A stretch of 55,603 nucleotides of DNA from a virus. Location: IMG/VR virus record IMGVR_UViG_3300044713_000025, positions 1 to 55,603 of that record; one strand, 5' to 3'. Shown here piece after piece: positions 14,650-45,765 of this stretch. Within the stretch, counting starts at the first letter, position 1. Each line of letters opens with the position of its first letter. Under the pieces are notes generated by a model. That model worked only from the letters and a program-made list of their open reading frames with translations. It did no database searches and was not told where the DNA came from. Position numbers and translations under genes: made by a program.

Positions 14650-16224
14650 TCACGCGGCCTTCTTAGCGCCGATATTGAGCGCAATCGCCTCGAACACGAC
14701 GGATGGCGCTACGCCAGATGCACACTTAGCAGCGCCGGTCTCGTTGTCCTTGTGGCAGAACTCCCAGGTATGATGCAGCCGATGGCACGGATAGCAGGGC
14801 GCGCGTTCCATGTCTGGCGTGAGGACCGTCGTATTGATCCAGTGCTTTGTCAGGTTCTCGTGCGAGGAATGCGAAAGGTAGATGACCTTTGGCACGCTCT
14901 CCATCGCCGCTGCATTCATCGGACCTGTCTCCGGTCCCACGATGCAATCAACCACCTTCAGGAACGACAGGGACCGCCGTATGGGCCACACGCCCGCAAT
15001 CCCATGGACCCGGCGCATATCCGCTCCACGAGGCTTCAGGCAGCTCATGATGCCTTCCTGAAGCTGCTTGCCCACCCCAGGATCACCATACAAAACCAAA
15101 TGACAGGGCGTCCGTTCCAGCAACCATGTCCCGACAATATGGACCCACGGATAAACCTTATGAGCGGAGGAACCATTGACCACCCATACGATCACCGGAC
15201 CATCCATCTGGCGTCGGGTGACTTCCGCCAGCTTCATCTCAGCTTCGGTGGCGTGAAAACGGGAATTGCTGAACTCGTGGGGCACAGCGGCGATATTGCA
15301 CGTATGCTCCAGATAGTTCGTGCGGCCCATGACCAATCGCCGAGCTTCTTCTGGATAGCCATGGTTCAGCCGTCCAGGGAGGGCCAGCAGAAGCCCCTCG
15401 ACCGATTCCGATAGGTTGATGATCCGGTCGTACCGCTGCTCCAACCCTTTCCAGTAGGGACCTAGCGTCTCGTTTGGCACGAAGTCATCAGCCTGGATCA
15501 GCCATTCGTCTATGTGGGGATCGTGCTCCAGAACATCCTTGGTCGCCGGTTTGCAGTTGATGGTGATATGATAGCGTTGCTCTTTAAGTCCCGGCAGAAT
15601 GGACGCCATGACAAACACATCGCCAATGGCTCCGTAGCGGATAATCAGCGCCCGCTTTTTCCCCTCTGGATTTCTCTGCCAGAGATTCTCACGCCACTCC
15701 TTATCCGCCAGCTTACGAGCCACCACGAGCAATCCGTATTCATCGTCCTCGCTGCGTTCCTCGCTTTCGACCAGTTCCCAGCCGCAGGAGGTGTCCTGCA
15801 ACAGCGTCTCGATATCGCCCCTGTTGACCTGCCACTTCTGGAACGGGTCGGCGAACTCCTCGCCTTCCATCGGGACCAGAAAGGAGTTCGGCAAATAGAG
15901 GACCAGATAACCGCCGACTTTCAGAACGCGCGACCACTCCTCCAGTACAACTGGCACCTTGGACCGCTCGATCTGGTGCAGCAGGAAAGAGGAAAACACG
16001 CTGTCATACGACCCATCGGTAAAGCCCGACAGATTAGTTCCATCGCCAAGGATATTGGTAATCGGACGCCCTCGATCAGTGCCAGTATCAATGCCCGTAA
16101 CCGTGGGCCAGACGCTTCCGGGGCCAGAGCCGATATCTAGTGCTTTGCCTTGGAGATACGGCACGATGATCGGCGCGATCTTGGCCGCCTCGCAGCCACC
16201 GAATAACTCTGGGCGGAAGGTCAC
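14650..16224 (-). CDS. Fused SAM methyltransferase and GT9-type glycosyltransferase
   Basis: 524 residues. Residues 1-185 are a class I methyltransferase: motif I ALDIGSGPGS (28-37), GIDTGTD as motif II, and a hydrophobic LKVGGYLVLYLPN strand. Residues about 190-500 resemble glycosyltransferase family 9 (ADP-heptose:LPS heptosyltransferase type): KKRALIIRYGAIGDVFVMAS, a second-half INLSESVEG and the nucleotide-sugar segment DCIVGPETGPMNAAAM. The C-terminus has a Cys cluster (APCYPCHRL, FCHKD, KCAS). Such a fusion inside the capsid/tail operon suggests modification of host surface glycans or of the virion. Substrate unknown. Confidence 0.7.
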   Translation of the reverse strand: MTFRPELFGGCEAAKIAPIIVPYLQGKALDIGSGPGSVWPTVTGIDTGTDRGRPITNILGDGTNLSGFTDGSYDSVFSSFLLHQIERSKVPVVLEEWSRVLKVGGYLVLYLPNSFLVPMEGEEFADPFQKWQVNRGDIETLLQDTSCGWELVESEERSEDDEYGLLVVARKLADKEWRENLWQRNPEGKKRALIIRYGAIGDVFVMASILPGLKEQRYHITINCKPATKDVLEHDPHIDEWLIQADDFVPNETLGPYWKGLEQRYDRIINLSESVEGLLLALPGRLNHGYPEEARRLVMGRTNYLEHTCNIAAVPHEFSNSRFHATEAEMKLAEVTRRQMDGPVIVWVVNGSSAHKVYPWVHIVGTWLLERTPCHLVLYGDPGVGKQLQEGIMSCLKPRGADMRRVHGIAGVWPIRRSLSFLKVVDCIVGPETGPMNAAAMESVPKVIYLSHSSHENLTKHWINTTVLTPDMERAPCYPCHRLHHTWEFCHKDNETGAAKCASGVAPSVVFEAIALNIGAKKAA

Positions 16225-31274: not shown

Positions 31275-31481
31275 TCATACCACATCGGCATACACTTTCC
31301 GATATTCAGTCCTCACAGCGGCAGCAAATGCAGCCCAACGATCCCAGGAGCCGAATTGCTGAACGATGCCTTCCTGCCGGCTTCGAGGGAGAATTAACGG
31401 CCCAAACCTCCTCAGTACCCGCTTCACTACTGCGTCGAGTCTGTCCTCATTTGTAAATCCCCTGCGCTGCCTAGACACCAT
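31275..31481 (-). CDS. Small basic protein after terminase
   Basis: 68 residues from ATG 31481, overlapping the terminase stop by 11 bases. Basic helical start (RLDAVVKRVLRRFGPLILP) and an aromatic end. No domain recognised. Confidence 0.5.
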   Translation of the reverse strand: MVSRQRRGFTNEDRLDAVVKRVLRRFGPLILPRSRQEGIVQQFGSWDRWAAFAAAVRTEYRKVYADVV

Positions 31482-34209
31482 CGGCATACACCCTGACCAC
31501 TTCCCGCGTCCTCGATGGAGGAGCCGGAGCCATCGCATCCATATCATACAGCCGCGAACAGGCGTCCAGCAGGTCGTCATGCAGCCCGAACGGGAACATC
31601 CGATATTCCTCCAGAAACCGGCACGTCACGTCGTACCGCCCTCCCCCGGCCCTTGGACTGGGCAGCGTCGGGTCTCGCGTAATCAGAGCCCGCGCTATCA
31701 AGTCCTCGCTCCCGCCCTCCAGCGCCTCTTTCATGACCCGCGAATCCCCTCGCCAGTCGTCATATACAATAGACCCCTGATCGCGGGATTCGCTATCGGT
31801 AATGACCCGCCAGACCTTGGCCTTCCCTTCATGCAGCACCGGTCCCGGCAGAAAGAACCGGCCGTTCCGAAAGTCCGGTTCCAGCCTTTGCACCCGCTCC
31901 TGCTTGGAGTTCCCGCCCTCGCGCGGCCATGAAAGCTCTAGGATCGGGAAATAGGCGTTCGGTATCTTGCGCCGCTGCTCCAGGTCCATCTGCTCCCGGA
32001 AGTACTCCTCATCGGCCTGCATACCGAACCGTTCCCAGCCCACAGCAATGTGCTGGACGCCGCGCATCTTCGACCAGCGGTGATATAACCCCCTGAGAGC
32101 CAGCCACCGTTGGGAGAGCGTCATGCGGTGGCAAACCCCATCGAGGAGGAACTTAGCTCCATTGGACGCAATCCCGACCACAGCAATAGCTGTGTTGTCG
32201 CTCGTCGCATGCCGCCCAGCGCTAGGGTCGCCCATGATGTAGACATTCAGTGTCCGTGGCCTGACTTCGTAAGCCTTCAGCCATTCCGTACGGAATGTAG
32301 CCTCGTCGTCCGCCATCGGGTTCTGCAATTGCTGCGCTGCAATAATCTGGCGGCTTGAAGTCCGTAGCTTGTCGGCCCAGCGTTCATCACTCCAGAATAC
32401 CGGCTGGCCGTCAAACCGTCCGTTGTGCGTTGCGGGAAAGATACGCGGCTCAGCCGCCTTGCGCTCCATGATGGTGCTGTACGTGTCATTAAGCTGATAG
32501 CGGGTTCCGATATATCGAACCACGCCAGCATCAGACCCAAGGTTCTGCGACATATCCCAGGCATCGGTGGTTTTCTTCACCATCTCTGGCGACATGATCT
32601 CTGGTACCACGTCATCATACACCCGCAGCTTGAAGTGAGCGCCCGTAGGCTGGCCGTCTACAAGGCCATAAGCCTCAATGGTTGCCTCTTTGGGGTTGCC
32701 CTGCCGCCTGACGATCAATCCTCCATCCTCAGACCATTTAGGCGACTGACGAGCAGGATCGGGCCAGAGTATCTCAGGATAGAGGTGCTTCAGCCATTCG
32801 TTGTCCTCTAGTTCCCGCTTGATCTGCTTCAGGAAGCCCTTGGCGATTGGACGCGTGTGGCTAAAGATGCCAACGGTAATCTCTGGATTGCACAGCACAT
32901 CGCGGACGGTCAGACCAAACGTGATTATGCTGCTGTTATGCGTGGGGATAAGCTGGTGCCCCACGCAATAGTGCCCTCCTTCCACCTGTATGCAGTTAGT
33001 GGGGACTGACGGGATCGGTTCAATTGAGGCAACCATTCGGGTATCGCGGTGCAAAGGCGCATAGATAGCACGGTCAGCCTTGCGTGGCATTAAAAACGGA
33101 TTTCGGTCCTTATGTGCTTGGAATGACACTTGCCAAAAGACATTCTGGCCTCCTTTGTACTTTCCAACGTAACGGCGCTGTCTGGGCCTAAGCCCAAGCG
33201 AACATGCCAATTCGTAGACATCATTCGCTAGGCACGTATTGGACTGCACAAAGGTTGCGGTCCCTCTTGTGTTACAATGACCGTCCGTATCCATGAGACC
33301 CCAGAGCAAACGGAGCCGCTGGTAAATGGACGACCGCTTATAGATGGAGGGAATATGCTTGTTTCGCACCAACCCTAAGTCTCTTAGGGCATTCATTACA
33401 TCAGACGAGAACCGATTGCCTCGCACCCCGCTCCCTATTCTCAGGGACACCGCATTGGAATGCTTAACTCTAACAACTCCAACGCCGCTTTGGGATAGAA
33501 CTTCCTCCATATGATCTGCATCGGAATGAGCAGCCGTGATCTTTGGTCCTCCTGAAGTTCCATCCCCAAGCCAAGCGCCTAGTACATAAGGGTCCAAAGG
33601 TAATTTTATTTCCGGATATCTGAGCGCAGCACAGACACCAACATCACGGCGACCTCTCATTTGGCGCATCTCGTCAGTGGTGACGATTTCCTGCGCGAAG
33701 TCCGTCCGTCGATCTTTTTTACCAACCCGGCGTCTAATCTTACGACGCAACGTCCACTGATGACCCGCCCCAGCTATGAGGTATGCCCCATCATTGAACC
33801 TGACCATCCGACAAGCGGAGTCAGTGAAATGTGGAGTAACCGCTAACACTGCCACCTCTTGGCCGTCAGGCGCGAATACTAGGTCGCCAACGGAAAGGTC
33901 ACCATGCGTTGCCCAGCCACGATTAGCCGTGAGAACTGGTGTATCAGTCGCTAGGTCTTTGTAATGTTCGCGTGCCCATAGGTCCAACATACCATCCGGG
34001 TTAGCCTGGACCTCCCGGCAGCGCTGGAACAGCCAGTCGTGGTTTAGGTCAGGACGCCTTAGCAATCGGACCAACAGGTAGAACAGGTCATTACGCCCTA
34101 GCCAGCGCTCAGCCTCGCGCCAAGCCTCCCCACCGGCCGCTTTCGCGTCCAGCTCTATCTGGCGATAGAACCGGAGCGAGTGGATGCGGTCAGTGGGAAG
34201 CGGGATCAT
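31471..34209 (-). CDS. terL: Terminase large subunit containing an intein
   Basis: 912 residues translated from ATG 34209 (ATGA with the upstream stop); an upstream TTG at 34233 is possible. The spliced extein would be about 571 residues. N-extein ends WAREHYK (residues 78-84) and the C-extein begins SSIITFG (426), so together they form the divergent Walker A AREHYKSS. Walker B is LRVYDDVV (Asp532-Asp533). A nuclease domain starts at VYIMGDPSAG (Asp661). The enzyme pumps DNA into the prohead and cuts concatemers. The intein at residues 85-425 must be removed for activity because it splits the P-loop. Confidence 0.88.
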   Translation of the reverse strand: MIPLPTDRIHSLRFYRQIELDAKAAGGEAWREAERWLGRNDLFYLLVRLLRRPDLNHDWLFQRCREVQANPDGMLDLWAREHYKDLATDTPVLTANRGWATHGDLSVGDLVFAPDGQEVAVLAVTPHFTDSACRMVRFNDGAYLIAGAGHQWTLRRKIRRRVGKKDRRTDFAQEIVTTDEMRQMRGRRDVGVCAALRYPEIKLPLDPYVLGAWLGDGTSGGPKITAAHSDADHMEEVLSQSGVGVVRVKHSNAVSLRIGSGVRGNRFSSDVMNALRDLGLVRNKHIPSIYKRSSIYQRLRLLWGLMDTDGHCNTRGTATFVQSNTCLANDVYELACSLGLRPRQRRYVGKYKGGQNVFWQVSFQAHKDRNPFLMPRKADRAIYAPLHRDTRMVASIEPIPSVPTNCIQVEGGHYCVGHQLIPTHNSSIITFGLTVRDVLCNPEITVGIFSHTRPIAKGFLKQIKRELEDNEWLKHLYPEILWPDPARQSPKWSEDGGLIVRRQGNPKEATIEAYGLVDGQPTGAHFKLRVYDDVVPEIMSPEMVKKTTDAWDMSQNLGSDAGVVRYIGTRYQLNDTYSTIMERKAAEPRIFPATHNGRFDGQPVFWSDERWADKLRTSSRQIIAAQQLQNPMADDEATFRTEWLKAYEVRPRTLNVYIMGDPSAGRHATSDNTAIAVVGIASNGAKFLLDGVCHRMTLSQRWLALRGLYHRWSKMRGVQHIAVGWERFGMQADEEYFREQMDLEQRRKIPNAYFPILELSWPREGGNSKQERVQRLEPDFRNGRFFLPGPVLHEGKAKVWRVITDSESRDQGSIVYDDWRGDSRVMKEALEGGSEDLIARALITRDPTLPSPRAGGGRYDVTCRFLEEYRMFPFGLHDDLLDACSRLYDMDAMAPAPPSRTREVVRVYADGV
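32935..33957 (-). mobile_element. Class 3-type intein with LAGLIDADG endonuclease
   Basis: 341 residues inserted between Lys84 and Ser426 of the terminase. Block A (LATDTPVLT) starts with Asp instead of Cys/Ser. Block B AGAGHQW has His150 and Trp152; block F CIQVEGGH has Cys406; block G LIPTHN has Thr423-His424-Asn425, followed by Ser+1. Trp B:12, Cys F:4 and Thr G:5 together are the W-C-T signature that defines class 3 inteins, which splice without an N-terminal nucleophile. Two LAGLIDADG motifs are intact: VLGAWLGDG (209-217) and LWGLMDTDG (302-310). Confidence 0.85.
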
Positions 34210-34664
34210 GGTTTGGGCGGACTGCCCAGACAATTGCTCATCGGGGCATTCATTATGGCTTCATAGGTCGCCTTGGCGGCTGCCTGTGCCGCTGCTTGCA
34301 TGGGGTTATATTCGGTAACTTTGGGCGTTGTCTGTGGTTCCTGCGCCCGCAGCGCCTCGATGAAGGCCAGTCGCCACCATTGGCGGCTCTGCATGGCCTC
34401 TACAGCCGCCTTGGCAATGCGTCTGGCCACTTCATGCTCATCGCCTCGGGCAACATCCCATGGCGTTGCAGCGGCTTGCATGAGGAAGCTCGCCAGCTCG
34501 TTGAGCGTCTCGGACGGGATCGGCTCGCCTGGGGGAGATATGGCTTGCGGCATGGGCGCCCCGAGTCGGCCTTGGTCGCCTAACGCAGACAATCCAGACC
34601 CGCAGCGCGGGCAGAGTTCGCCCGCGAACATGCCATGGGTGGCGCAGTGGTTAAGCTGGGTCAT
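34206..34664 (-). CDS. Zinc-knuckle helical protein upstream of terminase
   Basis: 152 residues from ATG 34664 (ATGA with the 47-residue gene). N-terminal HCATHGMFAGELCPRCG is a short zinc ribbon; the rest is helical (ELASFLMQAAATPWDVA, AVEAMQSRQWWRLAFIEALR). Unknown function; may assist packaging, given its position. Confidence 0.6.
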   Translation of the reverse strand: MTQLNHCATHGMFAGELCPRCGSGLSALGDQGRLGAPMPQAISPPGEPIPSETLNELASFLMQAAATPWDVARGDEHEVARRIAKAAVEAMQSRQWWRLAFIEALRAQEPQTTPKVTEYNPMQAAAQAAAKATYEAIMNAPMSNCLGSPPKP

Positions 34665-35107: not shown

Positions 35108-35455
35108 TTAGTGCCGCGTTTCCTCTGCCTCTTTGGTCACGGCGAGCGCTCGGCCAATCAAGTCCTCGATCGGCGCGCGGTTGTCCTCTATCGCATGGAG
35201 AATCGGGCCGCCATCCTTACCCGTCAGCTCATTCGGCTGCACTGGATTGCCCCACGCCCGGTTTAACAGCGCTACGCAAGCCATTGGCGAGGCTTTGGGA
35301 TTATCGCTAGCCATCCAGAAAGTCAGGCGTTTGATGGCTTCTGGCGTGTGCTGACGGGCGAGGGCTTGAACATCGACGATTTGCTTAGGTCTGCCGCCCG
35401 GATTGCCAGACTGACCCTTCTTCCATGACCCAGGAGTAGAAGATCGCTTTGCCAT
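35108..35455 (-). CDS. DUF5681-type protein, small terminase candidate
   Basis: 115 residues. The N-terminal GSWKKGQSGNPGGRPKQIVD is the DUF5681 signature, frequently found in proteins just upstream of large terminases. The helical rest (EAIKRLTFWMASDNPKA, CVALLNRAWG) fits a DNA-binding small terminase subunit. No clear ribosome binding site; TAAATA lies 6 bases before the ATG. Confidence 0.65.
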   Translation of the reverse strand: MAKRSSTPGSWKKGQSGNPGGRPKQIVDVQALARQHTPEAIKRLTFWMASDNPKASPMACVALLNRAWGNPVQPNELTGKDGGPILHAIEDNRAPIEDLIGRALAVTKEAEETRH

Positions 35456-35555: not shown

Positions 35556-35975
35556 GTGGTTATCGAGAGCGGGGGTCCGGCGGGACACAAGGTCGAGAGT
35601 TTGGGTCCGACGAGACTAGACGCCAGCGATCGGACAAGGAGGCTCGCTAGAGAGGGACGTTTGGCCGTAATCCAGTCGAGCGCTCCATTTGATTATCTTA
35701 GGGTGCAGATGCCAATTTCTCCTGGGGCATCTGGTGGGCCATTGATCGACGAGAACAATAAAGTCATCGGCATTATTGATGCCGAGCCGTTCGGTTTTCC
35801 CCCAGACGTAGGGCAGCTTGCCCAGACTTACGGTGCCGGCCACATGATATCTTCGGGAGTTTTTATCGCTGGCGTCGATATATCGCGCGCAGTCGGAGAG
35901 CTAGCATATGCAATTATCGAGGGGGTGTCACCCGGCTCTGGTTATGGGATGCCGATTGAGTATCTACATCAATAG
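35556..35975 (+). pseudogene. C-terminal remnant of a trypsin-like serine protease
   Basis: 139 codons from GTG 35556 with no ribosome binding site. SPGASGGPLIDENNKVIGII is the catalytic-serine segment of S1/HtrA-like proteases, followed by a short C-terminal region. The His and Asp halves are missing. In the same frame, upstream coding-like sequence (GVDLHDG) is cut by a TAG at 35547. This suggests a decayed gene captured from a host. It is the only plus-strand frame between 35.5 and 38.6 kb and its end overlaps the opposing secreted-protein gene. Confidence 0.5.
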
Positions 35976-43207: not shown

Positions 43208-43624
43208 CTACGCCACCGCCTCGCACGAGATAAGCTGGCGCCCAGTCTGGACGTAAGCAGCGGCCGAGTGAGCGTGGCAATACGGACGCCCGAGTTCAGA
43301 CGGCTCCAGGCACGTCTCCATTGGCCAGCAACACGGCGACCGCAATCGCTTGACTAGAGGCACCTCCAGCACCGGCAGGCTGTCAAGCACAGGGAGTGTG
43401 GGTCCGCCTGTCTTTGGGCGTCCTATTGGCTTGGGCTTGCCAGTTCCTTTGTTCTGGCCAACTGGATTCGGGCGACTTAGGCCGATTCGGTCACACTTGC
43501 CGCAGATGCTGTCCTTGCCTTTGTGGAGAATGCGACCGATTTCCCGCATGGACAGGCGCGGGTTTTCTTGGGCGTGGAGTTCCCGCAGCTTGGCTATCAG
43601 ATGATCCGGCCATTCCTCGCTCAT
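43208..43624 (-). CDS. gcrA: GcrA-family regulator
   Basis: 138 residues from ATG 43624. EEWPDHLIAKLRELHAQENP, REIGRILHKGKDSICGKCDR then C-terminal SPCCWPMETCLEPS and RPYCHAHSAAAYV: the N-terminal HTH plus C-terminal Cys/Trp motif of GcrA, the alphaproteobacterial cell-cycle regulator that recruits sigma70 at promoters carrying methylated GANTC. It overlaps the methyltransferase gene by 4 bases, which fits with a methylation-linked control circuit. The presence of GcrA argues for an alphaproteobacterial host. Confidence 0.8.
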   Translation of the reverse strand: MSEEWPDHLIAKLRELHAQENPRLSMREIGRILHKGKDSICGKCDRIGLSRPNPVGQNKGTGKPKPIGRPKTGGPTLPVLDSLPVLEVPLVKRLRSPCCWPMETCLEPSELGRPYCHAHSAAAYVQTGRQLISCEAVA

Positions 43625-44220
43625 GGCAGCCACCCTAGAGTTGGAGGTCCGACATGCGCTCGATCCCAAACAAACCATGCGAAAGCAATGGCACTCGTAG
43701 ACTTTGGCCCAACATACCCGTGGCGGTGCATCATAGGGAGACGCTTGGAGAACACCCATATTCGTGAGAGTCCAGTGCGTTCAAACATCATGCGCCTAGC
43801 ACTGCCTTCTAGCCATCCCAAGCGGCAGAGGAGTGCGACTTTGCCACCGGCCAGAACGTGCGCCTTGTCAGCAAACTCGGCCGCCAGCTTAAAAGGGGGA
43901 TTTGTGATGATATTCGGGGCCAATGGACTCGTCTCCATAAGGAAATCAACTCGCCCTTGGCCGTAACCGCGCGAGACTAAATCGGTGCTCACGACTTCAA
44001 ACCCCCTTGCCAGCAAAATGTCGCTAATGGCTCCATGGCCACAAGCCGGTTCCCAGATAGCACCGTCGAACGATTCGACCGCTAATAGTGAGTCAACCGC
44101 TATACGAGGAGTTTCATGAAAATCATCCGTTCTCAGGCTCCCAGACTGCCGCGCGCCAAGCATGGGTAAATGGCAGGAAGCTGAAGTTTCGGCTTTTGGC
44201 ACGGACAGGAGATCAGTCAT
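43621..44220 (-). CDS. DNA N6-adenine methyltransferase-like protein
   Basis: 199 residues from ATG 44220 (ATGA with the upstream gene). IWEPACGHGAISDILLARGF is the SAM-binding motif and IITNPPFKLAAEFADKA the catalytic NPPF motif of N6-adenine methyltransferases. The spacing between them is short (about 45 residues) and no separate target-recognition domain is visible. It may methylate phage DNA or be a specialised modification enzyme linked to GcrA. Confidence 0.72.
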   Translation of the reverse strand: MTDLLSVPKAETSASCHLPMLGARQSGSLRTDDFHETPRIAVDSLLAVESFDGAIWEPACGHGAISDILLARGFEVVSTDLVSRGYGQGRVDFLMETSPLAPNIITNPPFKLAAEFADKAHVLAGGKVALLCRLGWLEGSARRMMFERTGLSRIWVFSKRLPMMHRHGYVGPKSTSAIAFAWFVWDRAHVGPPTLGWLP

Positions 44221-45161: not shown

Positions 45162-45506
45162 TTATACCCCCACCAAGTCGGTTTGTCGTTCGTCATCGCC
45201 AAGCCGACGCTGCAACGCAAGCGCAGCTCGGCCCCAGGCGTCGCACTCTAATATGCAGTGATCTATCGCCTCGATTGCCGTATAGAGCGTTGACCGATCG
45301 CGCCCGAACTGCCGAGCAATGACGGACCATGAGCGTGAAGTCATCCTGACCGCCAGCCACATGCCGATTTGCCGTGGCCTTGCCAGATGCCGTGATCGCC
45401 GTTCGCCCAGAAGATCGCGCATGGGCAATGCGAACTCGCCACACACCGCAGCTTGGATGGCGGCTATCGTGGGTTCGGGGAATGTAGGACCACCGTCACT
45501 CCCCAT
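45162..45506 (-). CDS. DnaA domain IV (DNA-binding) protein
   Basis: 114 residues from ATG 45506. GERRSRHLARPRQIGMWLAV and IARQFGRDRSTLYTAIEAID: the domain IV of DnaA that contacts DnaA boxes, without its AAA+ motor. It may bind host DnaA boxes in the phage or compete with DnaA. The last base position in the motif (RDRST in place of RDHTT) keeps most DNA-contact residues. Confidence 0.75.
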   Translation of the reverse strand: MGSDGGPTFPEPTIAAIQAAVCGEFALPMRDLLGERRSRHLARPRQIGMWLAVRMTSRSWSVIARQFGRDRSTLYTAIEAIDHCILECDAWGRAALALQRRLGDDERQTDLVGV

Positions 45507-45765
45507 CCTGGTACACTCCCCACTTCGCCACATCGTCGTCCAAGTTGACCAGCCCGAGTAGCCACGCATCATGGTCCTTCACCCACGCGACCACTTGGTC
45601 GGTAGTCAGCTTAGCTGACTTCGCCAGTTCGCCTACCGTCGTGTAAGGCCATTCGCGACCGGCTTTGAGGTTGATCGTGTCTAGCCGCCGTAACTGCGTG
45701 AGGATGCGTCGCGCTTCGATTGAAGCGGGATCGGTTATCGGCTGGCCGTACCTACCGCGATACAT
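45496..45765 (-). CDS. Helical/HTH-like protein in replication module
   Basis: 89 residues from ATG 45765 with GGGAG 7 bases upstream. ARRILTQLRRLDTINLKAGR, TVGELAKSAKLTTDQVVAWV is HTH-like. Followed by the DnaA domain IV gene. Confidence 0.55.
   Translation of the reverse strand: MYRGRYGQPITDPASIEARRILTQLRRLDTINLKAGREWPYTTVGELAKSAKLTTDQVVAWVKDHDAWLLGLVNLDDDVAKWGVYQDGE

Follow-up and report, generated by a model that had tools for sequence, protein, structure and literature searches.

The large terminase subunit (TerL) of an uncultured phage almost certainly carries, in its ATP-binding loop, a full-length class 3 intein that is mobile and includes a LAGLIDADG homing endonuclease. The window, by which we mean the whole stretch of 55,603 nucleotides that was analyzed, carries the intein on its minus strand at 32935..33957, where an in-frame insert of 341 codons (Asp1 to Asn341) splits the Lys from the Ser of a Walker A-like motif (LDLWAREHYK/SSIITFG; here and below the slash marks a junction). 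A sequence-only reading had proposed an insertion between the Walker A Lys and Ser at 32935-33957, and these coordinates proved exact to the base, with the joined flanks and the intein-less alleles of related contigs agreeing on the site. The third-position G+C content is 0.51 in the intein versus 0.72 and 0.69 in the exteins, which fits a foreign element. No second intein of the same family was found in the window.

The terL precursor gene occupies 31471..34209 of the minus strand and encodes 912 residues from the ATG at 34209. The open reading frame extends over 31471-34233 and would give 920 residues if started at the TTG at 34233; the ATG, which forms an ATGA overlap with the stop codon of the preceding ORF, is the likelier start. 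The 920-residue frame is free of stops, whereas the other two frames of the same strand contain 15 and 23. The N-extein (33958..34209, minus strand), which was aligned to the terminases of VpV262 and IMG/VR contigs, ends in LDLWAREHYK and thus holds the Walker A-like motif as far as its Lys, while the C-extein (31474..32934, minus strand) starts at Ser+1 with SSIITFG and was identified by a PHROGs search as terminase large subunit phrog_38 (E=1.7e-42). Pfam and NCBIfam searches did not identify the extein; they yielded a sub-threshold LAGLIDADG_3 match and a weak match to a T7 terminase model (24.8 bits versus a cut-off of 150). Membership of the Terminase_1 family was rejected, since the Pfam search gave no terminase match and phrog_38 was matched instead. 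The extein is far from those of named phages: its identity is approximately 25-27% with Zobellviridae, VpV262 among them, and reaches 31% with the unclassified ctLwi270, where the alignment is partial. Its Walker A motif is of a deviant R-x-H-x-K-S type without the canonical glycines. Counted from the ATG, the predicted spliced terminase has 571 residues, in line with the length of about 571 that had been expected.

Upstream on the same strand, a DUF5681 protein (35108..35455; Pfam PF18932, E=1.4e-07) is, from its context, a plausible small-terminase partner of terL. On the opposite strand and adjoining the packaging genes, an apparently truncated ORF (35556-35975, plus strand) encodes the C-terminal half of a trypsin-like serine protease, which covers only positions 97-144 of the PF13365 profile and includes SPGASGGP. 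Elsewhere on the minus strand we observed a stand-alone DnaA C-terminal domain (45162-45572), a 524-residue protein, encoded amid the structural genes, whose N-terminal domain is a methyltransferase (14650-16224; PF08241, 1.2e-08), and a weak match to the GcrA cell-cycle regulator, slightly under the Pfam cut-off (43208-43759). The GcrA-like gene may suggest an alphaproteobacterial host.

The boundaries of the intein are fixed by empty alleles, which read through at the same site. Scans of IMG/VR revealed at least 16 related viral contigs without the insert (L030-L038, L040, L190-L192, L197, L198 and L200), in which the sequence runs uninterrupted from DLWAR-x-H-x-K to Ser; in four of these close relatives (L030, L190, L191 and L192) it reads REHGKSS, with Gly, Lys and Ser placed as in a normal Walker A. 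These relatives were reached by scans with an alignment that included VpV262-type terminases and then with L030, while a viral scan with the C-extein alone as the query found no relative. The spliced flanks, when aligned to the VpV262-type and ctLwi270 terminases, regain the R-x-H-x-K-S/T motif without a gap. Shifted boundaries were ruled out, as the empty alleles permit only K/S. The L200 contig (IMGVR_UViG_3300032954_000024) was found to hold an intein of another kind in its TerL ORF, which begins at 2896: its P-loop site is empty, and a class 1 intein of 261 residues (Cys1, SAN/S) lies elsewhere in this member of the clade, at GTRY/S close to the motor coupling motif. The ctLwi270 terminase (L025, MW202554, 2761-5298) also seems to hold an intein (QFA/C...SRN/CQQMNNP); its nuclease part is a separate downstream ORF, so that the gene may be split or hold two interruptions.

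We followed the published definition of class 3 inteins (PMC5222942, PMC7891396, PMC5050341), and every sequence feature of that class was found. The first residue, at block A:1, is the non-nucleophilic Asp1 (33955..33957, minus strand, as are all features of the intein), which rules out a class 1 intein and whose position is proved by the empty alleles. Block B contains His66-Gln67-Trp68 in AGAGHQW (33754..33762; B:10 and B:12), with Gly at position 7 of the block; block F contains Cys322 at F:4 in CIQVEGGH (32992..32994), the predicted first nucleophile, which is numbered Cys406 in the precursor of 912 residues; and block G ends in Thr339-His340-Asn341 (32935..32943; Thr at G:5), followed by Ser+1. 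The sequence-only reading had named this Asp and this Trp, Cys and Thr-His-Asn set, and all of them were recovered. Among 87 relatives of the intein, taken from contigs of viruses and bacteria, the columns aligned with residues 66, 68, 322, 339, 340 and 341 hold His in 87, Trp in 86, Cys in 86, Thr in 85, His in 87 and Asn in 87, and Cys322 is invariant across an alignment of 36 inteins. Position 1 is most commonly Ala in the relatives, with Asp in the minority; Asp1 is common to the window, L195, L002 and the intein of mycobacteriophage Constella. Insertion between Lys and Ser or Thr was seen in 54 of the 87, and 742 annotated phage records contain a relative of the intein.

Comparison with characterized inteins led to the same assignment. 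The class 3 DnaB intein of Msm (PDB 6bs8) was matched by phmmer (E=1.4e-15), and a PDB search with the profile of 36 inteins ranked the class 3 DnaB inteins 6bs8 and 6rix at the top (1.1e-38), followed by PI-SceI (2.7e-20). The AlphaFold model of the intein (mean pLDDT 94.7, pTM 0.91) matched PI-SceI over its whole length in Foldseek (E=2e-19), and its splicing half superimposed on the Msm class 3 DnaB intein with an rmsd of 1.1 A over 70 columns; among viral models, the top matches were often intein-bearing terminases. The earlier assignment to class 3 therefore holds, since the intein has all the sequence features and is closest in sequence and fold to proven class 3 inteins. Its description of the class as one known from a limited set of proteins does not, because a 2020 count in nr reached 1,701 members of class 3, of which 82.5% have LAGLIDADG motifs (PMC7891396).

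By analogy with the order of steps worked out on other class 3 inteins (PMC5222942), Cys322 would attack the bond between Lys-1 and Asp1 after translation, giving a branched thioester at block F; the acyl group would then pass to Ser+1, Asn341 would cyclize with the help of His340 to free the intein, and an acyl shift would join the exteins by a peptide bond, leaving the 571-residue terminase with its R-x-H-x-K-S-S loop intact. Judged from its residues, the intein would thus splice by the class 3 route. A class 2 route, with a direct attack of Ser+1 on the N-terminal junction and no need for Cys322, is very improbable. It would accord with the non-nucleophilic Asp1 and the presence of Ser+1, and inteins with a class 3 signature could in principle go either way (PMC5222942), but all three mini-inteins with this signature that have been tested required the Cys at F:4 (PMC5222942), and Trp, Cys and Thr are retained in nearly all relatives, including the inteins at the same site. 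As 341 residues part the loop Lys from the Ser, the unspliced motor is presumably unable to bind ATP, and packaging would depend on splicing. It is very unlikely that the terminases of the clade retain their P-loop class 3 intein as a post-translational switch, one that would hold back assembly of the motor, for instance through a redox-sensitive Cys322, rather than as a solely selfish element.

Reading the insert as an artefact of assembly, or as a remnant that has decayed and no longer splices, was already disfavoured and is scarcely credible. The window is one metagenomic contig, and neither near-identical DNA nor a near-identical independent copy was found in the phage collection; however, the precursor is a single open frame with every catalytic residue present, and an independent contig, L195, carries a same-site intein with an intact frame. 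On these grounds a decayed remnant was rejected. The L195 intein is 62% identical to that of the window (tblastn) and likewise begins with Asp1 (DLACDTPVLT), and its terminase extein is 68% identical. In total, an intein occupies the K/S site in five terminases of this clade, counting that of the window, the others besides L195 being L196 (38% identity, Asn1), L039 (40%, Met1) and L199 (37%, truncated), and the Trp, Cys and Thr-His-Asn set is kept in L195, L196, L039 and L199.

The endonuclease also appears complete, and the intein is probably able to home. Motif 1 (LGAWLGDG, residues 126-133, 33559..33582) and motif 2 (WGLMDTDG, residues 219-226, 33280..33303) retain the catalytic acids Asp132 and Asp225, which are Asp in 80 and 82 of the 87 relatives, and Lys200 of the NKHIP motif (33358..33360; Lys in 81 of 87) is intact as well; together with the PI-SceI fold match, this upholds the suggestion that both LAGLIDADG motifs look active. 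The endonuclease halves of the window and L195 inteins share 65% identity and have a dN of 0.33 versus 0.29 for the extein, and their pS of 0.86, at which synonymous differences are close to saturation, lies far above their pN of 0.27, indicating purifying selection rather than decay. Furthermore, the predicted activity is supported by the BAKA TerL1-b intein, a 39% identical relative that cuts an empty allele. The free endonuclease would cut an intein-less terL near the AREHYK/SSIIT codons, and repair would then copy the intein in.

An intein that splices but carries a dead endonuclease, and that has lost homing and is merely inherited along with the terminase gene, is the outcome that we consider possible but unlikely. 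The intein follows its closest extein, as the window and L195 are sisters in the tree of spliced terminases (support 99/95) with 62% identity between their inteins and 68% between their exteins, and no recent transfer event was seen: related contigs included no near-identical pair of occupied and empty alleles, which indicates that transfer is old or unsampled. Against this stand the intact Asp132, Lys200 and Asp225, a constraint on the endonuclease about equal to that on the extein, and the patchy occupancy of the terminase tree, which requires four changes on the extein tree, of which supported branches impose three or more. Since shuffled occupancy labels gave a similar count (mean 4.6 changes), the tree test proves only that occupancy spans more than one clade; homing elements typically show this kind of spread, in which gain and loss are here indistinguishable. 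A tree of 84 inteins, which did not include L195, L196 and L199, was poorly resolved at depth; it paired the window with L039 (support 91), and we claim no deeper grouping from it.

The terminase is the most frequent intein host in mycobacteriophages, and the P-loop position between Lys and Ser or Thr is a classic one, with terminase cases already published (PMC5050341). The closest characterized relative of the window intein is TerL1-b of the cluster J mycobacteriophages BAKA and Constella, which likewise combines a class 3 signature and a LAGLIDADG endonuclease with the TerL P-loop and, in Constella, has the same Asp1; the BAKA intein is 39% identical over its full length, and experiments have demonstrated both its splicing in a reporter and its cleavage of the empty allele from phage Courthouse (PMC5050341). 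TerL1-b differs in its insertion at GKG/S, one residue further on than K/S, and in its host terminase, which belongs to Terminase_1, whereas that of the window is phrog_38/VpV262-like. The TerL1-a inteins of mycobacteriophages and a Kocuria prophage, which were compared by site and extein, share the position directly after the P-loop Lys and before a hydroxyl residue (PMC5050341), but that residue is Thr, the extein is Terminase_1 and the host group is another. Vibrio phage JA-1, an N4-like podovirus, has a published intein-bearing terminase (PMC3670811; L205, 1246-3858) with a K/T-type site like that of the window (HRGIAK/...THN/TT), a non-nucleophilic first residue (Ala1), a block F Cys and Thr-His-Asn; at approximately 28% identity, it has an apparent Ile at B:12 in place of Trp and is a variant of the class 3 signature. 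The Msm DnaB-1 mini-intein (6bs8) resembles the window intein in its splicing-domain fold and Trp-Cys-Thr set, but lacks an endonuclease and resides in DnaB rather than TerL.

The type of intein is thus known, and the novelty is confined to its carrier, a divergent terminase clade without a close named phage. The find leaves the understanding of class 3 inteins unchanged; inteins are known to prefer the ATP-binding loops of phage packaging motors, and it adds to this a well-documented case, in a group of divergent VpV262/T7-like terminases, where one site has both occupied and empty alleles. Its practical value lies in a clade rich in empty alleles for homing tests, together with a relative that holds a class 1 intein elsewhere.
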